Shown piece by piece: positions 58,987 to 62,818 of a DNA stretch of 63,964 nucleotides. This DNA comes from Saprospiraceae bacterium (GTDB taxonomy: Bacteria > Bacteroidota > Bacteroidia > Chitinophagales > Saprospiraceae). The first letter of the stretch is position 1. Every line of letters begins with the position of its first letter. The stretch lies in assembly GCA_013001975.1 (NCBI GenBank), contig JABDKX010000111.1, forward strand, positions 1-63,964, read 5' to 3'. Below the pieces are notes generated by a model. It saw nothing but the letters and a program-made list of their open reading frames with translations, had not been told where the DNA came from and ran no database searches. Position numbers and translations under genes: made by a program.

Positions 58987-59049
58987 TCAAACCAGAAGGT
59001 TTGGTTTCCGATAGCTATCGGAAGAGAACCGCGAAGCGGGTTGGTTTGA
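58987..59049. repeat. 63-nt palindromic REP-like element
   Basis: Ends in inverted TCAAACCA/TGGTTTGA and contains an 18-bp perfect palindrome TTCCGATAGCTATCGGAA (59006-59023) plus a CCGC-GAA-GCGG hairpin (59029-59039); CAAACC/GGTTTG (58988-59003) offers an alternative first stem. The form suggests a mobile, folded repeat family. Confidence 0.65.
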
Positions 59050-59050
59050 C

Positions 59051-59114
59051 AATGAATTCAATGAATTCAATGATTCAATGAATATAATGAATACAATGAT
59101 TCAATGAATACAAT
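59051..59114. repeat. Short AT-rich tandem repeat
   Basis: About seven imperfect copies of an 8-9-bp unit (AATGAATTC, AATGATTC, AATGAATAC). Directly follows the palindromic element; likely a microsatellite or part of the same repeat. Confidence 0.7.
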
Positions 59115-59127
59115 ATTAACGAAACAA

Positions 59128-59264
59128 TAAAAAGCGCCCTCCTTCGTCGGTCTCTATTTTTTTATGCTTCCAAGCCATCCTCAAAACAAGTTTTGGTCTG
59201 ACTTGTATGCATAAAAAAAGACCACTCTGCGAGCGGCCTTTTTATTTGCTGTGAGAGAAGGATT
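59128..59264. repeat. 137-bp repeat, copy 1
   Basis: Identical by eye to 59296-59432 except one base (A at 59156, G at 59324). It includes the last 15 nt of the tRNA-like gene and two terminator-like hairpins (as in copy 2); beyond it the sequence diverges into GGATTGC-TGC-GCGATCC, a hairpin where the T-arm should be. Confidence 0.85.
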
Positions 59265-59295: not shown

Positions 59296-59432
59296 TAAAA
59301 AGCGCCCTCCTTCGTCGGTCTCTGTTTTTTTATGCTTCCAAGCCATCCTCAAAACAAGTTTTGGTCTGACTTGTATGCATAAAAAAAGACCACTCTGCGA
59401 GCGGCCTTTTTATTTGCTGTGAGAGAAGGATT
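59296..59432. repeat. 137-bp repeat, copy 2
   Basis: 168 bp downstream of copy 1. Overlaps the 3' end of the intact tRNA-like gene (minus strand). It contains an inverted repeat TTTTTTTATGC (59325-59335) / GCATAAAAAAA (59377-59387) and the terminator at 59381-59411. Confidence 0.85.
59381..59411. terminator. Intrinsic terminator of the tRNA-like gene
   Basis: 8-bp stem GACCACTC (59388-59395) / GAGCGGCC (59399-59406), TGC loop, two G-T pairs on the minus strand, followed there by seven Ts (59387-59381). A T5 run on the other side makes it bidirectional. An identical copy lies at 59213-59243. Confidence 0.8.
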
Positions 59433-59560
59433 CGAACCTTCATGGGGTGCTTAGCCTTAGGACAAATATCAAGTTTGTGGTCAATCCTTATCCTACGTTT
59501 GTAACATTATCCCCACCCTCGAGACAAGAGGGCATGTCTGCCTAGTTTCATCACCTCACA
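59417..59560 (-). tRNA. Oversized tRNA-like gene, isotype uncertain
   Basis: The minus strand folds as a tRNA: a 7-bp acceptor stem TGTGAGG/TCTCACA with one G-T pair, positions 8-9 TG, a D-arm ATG...CAT with Leu-like loop AAACTAGGCAGA, an anticodon-like stem CCCTC-TTGTCTC-GAGGG, and a perfect T-arm GAAGG-TTCGAAT-CCTTC. The discriminator is G and CCA is not encoded. Between the second stem and the T-arm lie about 70 nt closed by GGGG/CCCC, much longer than a normal variable arm. They include ACAAA-CTTGATA-TTTGT, another possible anticodon arm (UGA, Ser). The first loop would read GUC (Asp), at odds with the Leu-like body. It may be a decayed, intron-bearing or unusual tRNA. A terminator follows. 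Confidence 0.6.
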
Positions 59561-59741
59561 GTATCGTTGTTTATACTTCGTTAAGTACAATACAAATTTA
59601 AGTACATTTCTACTTATGATGCAAATATTCTAATTAAAATTAGTAAAATATAGAAAATATCTAAGTATTAATATAATAATGTTGAAAATATCAAATTAAA
59701 TATATCATAACACTTGTGTTCTTGAAAATATTTTACCTTAG

Positions 59742-59773
59742 GGACCTGACAGGTTGTACAACCTGTCAGGTCC
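59742..59773. repeat. 32-nt perfect palindrome
   Basis: A fully self-complementary sequence (arms GGACCTGACAGGTT and AACCTGTCAGGTCC around GTAC), ending 6 nt before the TTG start of the next gene. It may be a dispersed repeat of Bacteroidota genomes or a leader hairpin covering the ribosome-binding region. Confidence 0.85.
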
Positions 59774-59779
59774 TTAAAT

Positions 59780-61753: not shown

Positions 61754-62818
61754 TTGTCTACTAAACTCAAAGATTTTCTCAAATTTCTAATTTTCCTTTC
61801 AATAGGTTTATTGATTTTATATTTATTGTATTCCAAACAAAATGCAGCTCATCTGGCAGAATGTGCTGAATTGGGAATACCAGAAAACGAGTGTTCATTA
61901 ATTGATAAAATTGTTTCAGATTTTAAATCTGTAAACGTACTTTGGATAGGATTGATTTGTATAATATTTATGTTGAGCAACTTGTTGCGAGCTTGGAGAT
62001 GGAATCAATTACTCGATCCATTAGGATACAAACCTAAAATAATAAATAGCCTAGGTGCTATAATGTTAGGGTATTTTACAAATTTAGCGGTACCTAGAAT
62101 TGGAGAAGTTGTCAGAGCAGCGAGTTTGGCTAAGTATGAAAATATTCCAGCAGAAAAAATATTTGGCACTATAGTCGTCGATAGAATACTAGATGTAATA
62201 TCCCTTCTAATTGTTATAGGGATCGCCTTCATTTTTTCTTTTGAAACAGTTGGCAACTATATTGCTGAAAAGTCTAACATCTCCATTCAAGCACTTATCT
62301 ACTTTTTTATTATTGCTTCTATTTTAGGTCTCGTTGGATTGTGGATTTTAAAAAAATTTATAATTGACAGTGAATCTACGCAGCCATTTTTTCTAAAAAT
62401 TCGCAAACTCATCTTAGGCTTTAAAGATGGCTTGTTGTCAGTTTTAAAGGTTAAAAACTTGCCTTTTCTTATTTTCAATTCAATAGGAATTTGGTTGATG
62501 TATTATTTAATGACTTACTTATGCTTTTTTGCATTTGAACCGACGAGCGAATTAGGTCCAGTTGCAGGATTGGTAACATTCGTCTTTGGAAGTTTAGGTA
62601 TGGTCATTCCATCACCTGGAGGTATTGGTACTTATCAATGGTTGGTAACAGAAGCTTTATTAATTTATAATGTAGAATATAGTGATGCCTTCTCGTTTTC
62701 GAATATTATGTTTTTTACCATCCAGATATTTTGCAACATCGCAATTGGCGTTTTCTTTTATTTGTTTTTACCATTTTATAACCGTAAAAGCGATGAGAAA
62801 AATTTATCAACAGAATAA
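61754..62818 (+). CDS. Flippase-like integral membrane protein (UPF0104/lysylphosphatidylglycerol synthase TM family)
   Basis: A 354-aa protein with about eight helices and TTG start. Family signatures include NLLRAWRWNQLL, AIMLGYFTNLAVPRIGEVVRAASLAKYE, TIVVDRILDVISLL and the late SLGMVIPSPGGIGTYQWLV. It corresponds to the transmembrane part of MprF-type proteins without the synthase domain. Family members are proposed to flip or bind lipids; the substrate is unknown. It follows panC by about 110 bp of non-coding sequence. Confidence 0.85.
   Translation: MSTKLKDFLKFLIFLSIGLLILYLLYSKQNAAHLAECAELGIPENECSLIDKIVSDFKSVNVLWIGLICIIFMLSNLLRAWRWNQLLDPLGYKPKIINSLGAIMLGYFTNLAVPRIGEVVRAASLAKYENIPAEKIFGTIVVDRILDVISLLIVIGIAFIFSFETVGNYIAEKSNISIQALIYFFIIASILGLVGLWILKKFIIDSESTQPFFLKIRKLILGFKDGLLSVLKVKNLPFLIFNSIGIWLMYYLMTYLCFFAFEPTSELGPVAGLVTFVFGSLGMVIPSPGGIGTYQWLVTEALLIYNVEYSDAFSFSNIMFFTIQIFCNIAIGVFFYLFLPFYNRKSDEKNLSTE

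Follow-up and report, generated by a model that had tools for sequence, protein, structure and literature searches.

A tRNA-like RNA family with a giant variable arm in Bacteroidota and in phages

Introduction

Transfer RNAs share the consensus features U8, A14, G18 G19 and a T-loop of the form UUCRANY, and decoding tRNAs carry U33 together with a purine at position 37. Bacterial Y RNA (YrlA) also contains a tRNA-like module, accompanied by an extra stem and UUGACC-like letters.

The identity set for aspartate comprises G73, G34, U35, C36 and C38, to which G1-C72 and G2-C71 are added in bacteria, and the amidation of Asp-tRNA depends on U1-A72, with G1-C72 and U20a as antideterminants, according to excerpts of PMC9976931. 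Bacterial GatCAB recognises U1-A72, as stated in excerpts of PMC4206432, and SerRS uses the long variable arm and G73, as stated in excerpts of PMC7609411. In the open-access PMC literature, no paper describing an RNA like the one reported here was found by title or abstract start, and in the excerpts of the non-canonical tRNA review PMC7609411, Bacteroidetes are not mentioned and no arm of comparable size appears. Therefore, we call this RNA new within the tRNA family. Here we describe a giant-armed tRNA-like family, the existence of which is near certain.

Results

An oversized tRNA-like gene in the window

A sequence-only reading of the window, i.e., the whole stretch of 63,964 nucleotides analysed here (contig JABDKX010000111.1 of a Saprospiraceae bacterium), had proposed an oversized tRNA-like gene at 59417-59560. 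This proposal was borne out. The region from U1 to G73 corresponds exactly to these positions on the minus strand, and all of the named elements were read in the sequence: the perfect acceptor and T-arm, the Leu-like D-loop, a 5-bp/7-nt arm with GUC, and an insert of ~70 nt closed by GGGG/CCCC. U8 and G9 are present between the acceptor and the D-arm. The gene and its parts are as follows.

59416..59561, minus strand: giant tRNA-like gene; position -1 is 59561, U1 is 59560, G73 is 59417 and the encoded C74 is 59416
59554..59560, minus strand: 5' strand of the acceptor stem, UGUGAGG (U1 G2 U3)
59534..59551, minus strand: D-arm, with the stem ATG/CAT and a Leu-like loop
59516..59532, minus strand: anticodon arm CCCUC-UUGUCUC-GAGGG, with GUC at 59523-59525
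59443..59515, minus strand: giant variable arm of 73 nt, with helices P1-P3, internal loop and apical hairpin, closed by UGGGG/CCCCA
59511-59515 with 59443-59447, minus strand: arm helix P1, with covariation
59504-59506 with 59448-59450, minus strand: arm helix P2, with covariation
59497-59503 and 59451-59456, minus strand: conserved internal loop of the arm
59477..59484, minus strand: UUGACCAC, a conserved motif in the arm of long-arm copies (alignment A2)
59463-59477, minus strand: apical hairpin of the arm, ACAAA-CTTGATA-TTTGT
59425..59441, minus strand: T-arm GAAGG-UUCGAAU-CCUUC
59418..59424, minus strand: 3' strand of the acceptor stem, UCUCACA (A70 C71 A72)

The D-arm is nearly identical to the 20-base D-arm of tRNA-Leu(tag) from the same genome. 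No open reading frame of at least 80 amino acids covers the gene. ARAGORN called no tRNA on the window; a confident standard-length tRNA at the same coordinates, which the sequence-only reading had named as a refutation of its proposal, was thus not found. Rfam gave nothing at gathering scores on the window. The best tRNA-type Rfam match under relaxed limits was tRNA-Sec, which scored 20 bits where gathering requires 47, and the plastid and leader matches from the relaxed scan were rejected as chance level. Both programs miss the gene because the long arm breaks the tRNA model. The fold of the single sequence is no evidence here. It was no better than that of shuffled sequences (z -1.4; 16 of 200 shuffles were at least as stable), and the cloverleaf with the arm has -28.8 kcal/mol, as compared with -43.8 kcal/mol for the predicted minimum fold, which is a different one. 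It is the comparison of homologues that lifts the structure above chance.

Structure and covariation across the family

Alignment A2 consists of 34 of the 46 copies from L005-L034, namely all 33 long-arm copies and L007, with 12 short or odd copies omitted. Using the cloverleaf with the arm, 96.8% of the cells in A2 pair, versus 44-57% when the partners are slid by 1-3 columns. Twelve pairs change on both sides, versus 2-6 after sliding by 1-3 columns, and this number was reached by 5 of 500 shuffles. The covariation score was 0.301 against 0.147 in the shuffles, none of which (0/500) reached 0.301. Double changes are present in all of the arm helices P1, P2 and P3. With 99 model-fitted copies, an alignment biased towards the model, 24 double-changed pairs were counted versus 9-13 after sliding. 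The acceptor, anticodon and T-arm helices pair in 99.7-100% of the cells and the D-stem in 97.2-100%.

As in the tRNA family of Rfam (RF00005), a 7-bp acceptor is combined with D-, anticodon and T-arms in cloverleaf order, and U8, A14, G18 G19 and the UUCRANY T-loop are found in alignments A2 and A3; the giant RNA reaches neither the RF00005 gathering score nor an ARAGORN call. The arm contains two internal loops, and its length in alignment A4 is 34-131 nt, where 34 nt belongs to a cut copy and 39 nt to the shortest full one.

The arm is a single structured unit with three covarying helices and conserved internal loops, and the earlier suggestion of a tRNA with a giant variable region was right, as were the words 'non-canonical' and 'tRNA-like RNA'. 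A second 5-bp/7-nt stem-loop (UGA) had been noted as a possible second anticodon arm. The hairpin does exist and forms the apex of the variable arm. However, its UGA loop letters are not conserved in the alignment, and it is therefore not a second anticodon. Since ARAGORN and Rfam miss the gene and its predicted minimum fold is different, one might suspect tRNA decay, a joining of two tRNA halves, an intron or a misreading of the sequence. These options are refuted by the conservation across families and phages, and the covariation and the flanking signals also speak against them. The fusion and the small intron, both considered in the sequence-only reading, are not supported because the arm is one structured, covarying unit and the whole gene is conserved, and decay is not supported in view of the conservation, the promoter-like and terminator-like flanks and the carriage by phages.

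Loci with several tandem copies are frequent, and the arms differ among the copies. In L022, L023, L028, L031, L033 and L034, long-arm copies stand in tandem with short-arm copies lacking the UUGACC motif. The short arms of Cyclobacteriaceae (L113, L118, L123, L131, L138, L145) have the hairpin-loop palindromes CGAGCUCG or AGAGCUCU, and the long arms of Chitinophagaceae have the hairpin-loop palindrome GGUCGACC. Judging from their letters, these palindromic loops could form loop-loop dimers; a strict palindrome is disfavoured, because the variants GGUGGACC and GGUAGACC occur. The GUC loop might also form a kissing interaction with the GAC of the arm motif; this motif is missing from the short-arm copies.

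Distribution in Bacteroidota

BLAST analysis with the 145-base gene matched 3 of the 14 genomes of the same genus, the genome of the window included, and found no copy in the other 11. Within the family, matches at E <=0.01 came from 203 of 398 genomes, representing 71 of 112 genera; two candidates were scored per genome, and the count of 203 includes partial and weak matches. The covariance model R1, which gives the window gene 157.7 bits, was applied to 395 genomes of the phylum, with eight candidates scored per genome. Giant copies were found in 40 genomes and all scored at least 81.7 bits, clearly separated from the next score of 61.5 bits. Absences are less certain than presences, because only eight candidates were scored per genome. 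Seven lower matches were inspected, and six were canonical tRNA-Leu and one was a tRNA-Asp-type gene. By family, the giant RNA was found in all genomes of f1 (6/6), f8 (8/8) and f10 (3/3), in 11/13 of f2, 7/10 of f3 and 2/3 of f9, and in three genomes of f48. The covariance-model scan and the alignment of homologues, both proposed earlier as checks, thus confirmed a family with the giant form in 40/395 genomes of the phylum, and the lack of conservation that had been named as a possible objection is refuted by the family-wide and phylum-wide matches.

The core pattern was found in at least 119 stretches from named genomes, and among the matches listed, 80 of 80 loci were titled Bacteroidota (Saprospiraceae, Chitinophagaceae, Cyclobacteriaceae, Dyadobacter, Spirosoma and others). 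A plasmid-borne mobile element was rejected, as a 221-base query had no match in PLSDB. At positions 138-214 of L229 (genome G467), ARAGORN reads a tRNA-Asp with the anticodon ATC and an unusual A34.

Flanking signals and neighbouring genes

The motif TAnnTTTG, which we take to be the Bacteroidota -7 promoter element, occurred in 84 of 130 upstream stretches of 100 nt, mostly 30-40 nt ahead of the RNA, while 50 shuffles gave a mean of 12.9 and a maximum of 22. A terminator-like hairpin was found by a purpose-made detector in 100 of 131 downstream stretches, versus a mean of 33.2 and a maximum of 43 in 20 shuffles. Both counts leave out the window locus itself (L037), which has the following flanking features.

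59593..59600, minus strand: promoter-like TAAATTTG, matching TAnnTTTG, 31 nt before position -1
59622-59625, minus strand: TTTG, at a spacing of 21 to TAAATTTG
59381..59411, minus strand: intrinsic-terminator-like hairpin followed by a T run, directly downstream of the giant gene
59248..59264, minus strand: what is left of a second, lost giant gene, namely part of its 3' end, which terminates the 137-nt block 59128-59264

This 137-nt block is 99% identical to 59296-59432, and the duplication looks as if a tandem array of giant genes had decayed. Elsewhere in the window, a nearly perfect 20+20 nt palindrome, GACCTGACAGGTTGT/ACAACCTGTCAGGTC, lies at 59738-59777 just ahead of the start of a GH113 gene, and degenerate direct repeats of ~9 nt based on ATTCAATGA occupy 59047-59114. 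An LPG_synthase_TM protein (lysylphosphatidylglycerol synthase TM region) is encoded at 61754-62818, three genes from the giant gene, with no evidence of a link.

Outside the family of the window genome, an AsnC-type regulator gene lies divergent and directly upstream in 21 of 24 loci, with a gap of 121-369 nt (1.5 kb flanks). Among the matches listed, 55 of 80 named loci have this neighbour, always divergent and with a gap of 124-252 nt; the named loci without it include many of Saprospiraceae and Cyclobacteriaceae. Within the family of the window genome, this position is often taken by a GH113 gene. Three AsnC-type neighbour proteins have HTH_AsnC-type and AsnC_trans_reg domains, and the best PDB match of one neighbour regulator was E. 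coli AsnC (4e-33), as compared with 3e-10 for Lrp. The idea that asnA was replaced at the asnC locus is not supported, since none of the six asnA loci read has an AsnC-type gene.

One alternative is that the giant RNA is a regulatory tRNA mimic, which would bind AspRS, GatCAB or another tRNA-binding partner and would act with the AsnC-type regulator to sense or tune the Asp/Asn supply, amino-acid delivery not being its main job. The divergent neighbour and the several copies per locus with differing arms are in line with such a role, and the GatB co-occurrence described below fits it equally well. However, the G73-C74 and acceptor letters, invariant in host and phage, and the phage tRNA arrays free of the regulator suggest that the 3' end is in use, and we consider a mimic rather unlikely.

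Copies in phages

The core pattern was found in 102 stretches of IMG/VR. Among the matches listed (80 of 102), all 80 contained a copy, with scores of 64-152 bits and 60 distinct sequences. Within the stretch analysed, 47 of these 80 listed loci had one or more canonical tRNA or tmRNA genes and 21 had five or more, and the nearest one was at most 20 nt away in 23, often at 4 nt. An AsnC-type gene was found beside none of the 80 copies among the matches listed. The phage tRNA sets around the giant gene have up to 26 tRNA and tmRNA genes, and a record of a 636-kb uncultured phage has a 73.6% copy amid nine tRNA genes within 10 kb. Of ten phage flank proteins, eight match PHROGs to which a function in replication or packaging is assigned, and three of these eight are terminase or portal. 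The hosts of the large viruses with the giant RNA are probably Bacteroidota.

The phage copies L282, L328, L347 and L295 have an additional hairpin-like insertion in the D-loop. Phage tRNA arrays with tmRNA lie near the giant gene in L308, L325, L337 and L347, and L337 also has genes for an RNA ligase and for a protein of the S-adenosylmethionine lyase family.

Conserved letters of the acceptor and the anticodon loop

The letters of the acceptor and the 3' end were counted in 159 distinct host copies of more than 105 nt. U1-A72 was found in 157, G2-C71 in 159, U3-A70 in 158, G73 in 159 and C74 in 159. The corresponding numbers for 59 phage copies, with one cut copy omitted, were 57, 59, 57, 59 and 59. 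C74 is also present in 15/15 canonical tRNAs examined from the window's own genome, and the 3' end of the giant RNA therefore looks normally matured. We infer that the RNA truly belongs to the tRNA family, being derived from a tRNA and matured like one, and that it is probably not a decoding tRNA.

The conservation of the anticodon loop was read from alignment A3, which consists of 38 copies found by the model and not selected on their anticodon-loop letters. Alignment A4 and the viral set are uninformative on this point, because the search pattern fixes the loop. In A3, G34 is present in 37 of 38 copies, and U35, C36 and C38 in each of the 38. In all but one of the copies, position 37 is U, the exception being C; no copy has a purine there, and U33 is found in 30. 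The giant RNA thus lacks the combination of U33 and purine 37, and its pyrimidine 37 and unfixed U33 appear poorly suited to decoding. The anticodon stem takes the forms CCCUC/GAGGG, CCUCC/GGUGG, CCGCC/GGCGG and CCCGC/GCGGG, and UCUCC/GGAGA in a phage.

A specialised decoding tRNA would deliver Asp (or Asn) to GAC/GAU codons under some condition. The GUC anticodon, the U33 in most A3 copies (30/38) and the position of the phage copies in tRNA sets could be taken in this sense. However, the pyrimidine 37 in 38/38 copies, the variation of U33 and the arm of 34-131 nt do not fit, and a canonical tRNA-Asp(gtc) coexists in G074, G137, G641 and several phage loci carrying the giant RNA, which makes the decoding function improbable. 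The canonical genes in these three genomes also rule against the giant RNA as the only Asp tRNA of the cell, a candidate that was rejected for them.

From the set read by AspRS, the giant RNA has G73, G34, U35, C36, C38 and G2-C71, with U1-A72 in place of G1-C72. From the set relevant to GatCAB, it has U1-A72 and no U20a; the D-loop GGCAGA reads as A20a in our own numbering of A2. Taken together, the letters suggest loading with aspartate. Charging by SerRS would instead give a serylated class II tRNA-like RNA for a non-decoding use, and the long arm and G73 are indeed present. SerRS, however, explains neither why the GUCUC loop is kept while the anticodon stem changes nor the GatB co-occurrence, and we regard this charging as improbable, on a par with decoding.

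Comparison with known systems

The class II tRNAs (tRNA-Leu, tRNA-Ser and tRNA-Sec) have in common with the giant RNA the cloverleaf, 7-bp acceptor, 5-bp T-stem, Leu-like D-arm and long variable arm, and R1 scores canonical tRNA-Leu up to about 61 bits. The giant RNA differs from them in the size of the arm (34-131 nt in A4) with its two internal loops, in the Asp-type anticodon loop and in the pyrimidine 37. Furthermore, tRNA-Leu has A73 whereas the giant RNA has G73, and in place of the UCA anticodon and 8-bp acceptor of tRNA-Sec it has GUC and 7 bp. It shares G34 U35 C36 C38, G73 and G2-C71 with tRNA-Asp (GUC), but its anticodon loop is YUGUCUC and not CUGUCAC, and it has U1-A72 and not G1-C72, a class II arm, a Leu-like D-arm and U37. 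The tRNA-Asn of the AspRS-GatCAB transamidosome has the same U1-A72, G73 and presence with GatCAB (excerpts of PMC4206432 and PMC9976931). In contrast, the giant RNA has GUC and not GUU, has the giant arm, is found alongside AsnRS and GlnRS, and is probably non-decoding.

Like the giant RNA, tmRNA is a tRNA-like RNA sometimes missed by tRNA finders, and some phages carry both. However, the giant RNA has an anticodon arm and a D-stem, no tag reading frame was seen in it, and the Rfam tmRNA models gave no match. The tRNA-like module, the extra stem and the UUGACC-like letters are shared with bacterial Y RNA (YrlA). Identification as Y RNA was rejected, as TROVE/Ro is absent from the window's own genome (G000) and was found in 1 of 15 genomes tested, 8 of which carry the RNA.

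Co-occurrence with GatB

From the U1-A72 of the giant RNA, co-occurrence with GatCAB was predicted before testing. The presence of GatCAB was scored by GatB (PF02934) in 36 genomes with the RNA and 37 genomes without it, chosen by family ahead of the test. The RNA-positive set consisted of 33 of the 40 R1-positive genomes plus G007, G074 and G137 from the family-wide BLAST analysis, and the RNA-negative set of 37 of 355. GatB was found in 36/36 RNA-positive genomes and in 2/29 RNA-negative genomes of the same class; it was present in 8/8 RNA-negative genomes outside the class. AsnRS was over the cut-off in 72 of the 73 genomes, and GlnRS in 30/36 RNA-positive and 28/37 RNA-negative genomes. 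Among the genomes with both AsnRS and GlnRS, GatB was present in 30/30 with the RNA versus 1/28 without it (G428, from another class), with a Fisher value of 1e-15 for species that are not independent; the same contrast counted by genus was 22/22 versus 1/18 (2e-10). Since AsnRS and GlnRS are both present, GatCAB is not needed there for ordinary Asn-tRNA or Gln-tRNA. The two GatB-positive members of the class without the RNA, G467 and G437, have no GlnRS.

This pattern might also have arisen if an ancestor had both GatB and the giant RNA and the two disappeared together without any functional tie, with the RNA having another role. Their distribution in the class is patchy, and related genomes do not count as independent. 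However, the contrast is also seen inside f2 (RNA-positive 11/11 versus RNA-negative 0/2), inside f3 (5/5 versus 0/3) and at the genus level, and the prediction preceded the test. We therefore give little credence to joint loss.

AsnA was found in 2/36 RNA-positive versus 8/37 RNA-negative genomes, which is only a trend (p 0.085); with AsnRS and GlnRS both present, the numbers were 0/30 versus 7/28 (p 0.004), in a subset picked after seeing the data. Canonical tRNA-Asn with U1-A72 was found in 14 of 17 RNA-positive and 8 of 9 RNA-negative genomes read, and the giant RNA is therefore not the sole possible substrate of GatCAB in general. Among the RNA-positive genomes read, tRNA-Asn with G1-C72 was found only in G000, G007 and G559; this is the form of the window's own genus. 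G1-C72 in tRNA-Asn as the reason that GatCAB needs the giant RNA fits this genus, fails generally and was rejected.

Discussion

We see about an even chance that the giant RNA is a dedicated, probably non-decoding tRNA that is charged with Asp and amidated to Asn. AspRS would read G34 U35 C36 C38, G73 and G2-C71 and load aspartate on the RNA, and GatCAB would read U1-A72 and amidate the RNA-bound aspartate to asparagine. With its unfixed U33, its pyrimidine at position 37 and its very large arm, the RNA would take no part in decoding and would serve as a dedicated carrier for tRNA-dependent asparagine synthesis. The neighbouring AsnC-type regulator may control its supply. As a speculation, the arm may bring AspRS and GatCAB together, or may exclude the RNA from EF-Tu and the ribosome. 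Exit of Asn from the RNA is conceivable both by hydrolysis and by transfer to an acceptor.

Several points stand against this Asp-Asn pathway. G1-C72 is missing, SerRS also fits the long arm and G73, and U1-A72 is common in tRNA-Asn. In addition, AsnA gives a trend only, GatB is present in 8/8 RNA-negative genomes outside the class, and the phage copies have no AsnC-type neighbour. With somewhat less than even confidence, we propose more broadly that a tRNA lineage retired from decoding has become a biosynthetic cofactor, for the conversion of Asp to Asn by AspRS and GatCAB under AsnC-type control in several Bacteroidota families, that it is the first such case, and that large phages bring it within their tRNA arrays to maintain the Asn supply during infection.

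The giant RNA would constitute a tRNA class with an architecture beyond the known size range, missed by standard gene finders, and it occurs in well-known genera, i.e., Chitinophaga, Dyadobacter, Spirosoma and Algoriphagus. The question of why bacteria with AsnRS and GlnRS keep GatCAB has been raised for other bacteria, in excerpts of PMC4206432. The giant RNA offers an explanation for the retention of GatCAB in bacteria with both enzymes, and it gives a reason to seek non-decoding tRNAs in other phage tRNA arrays.
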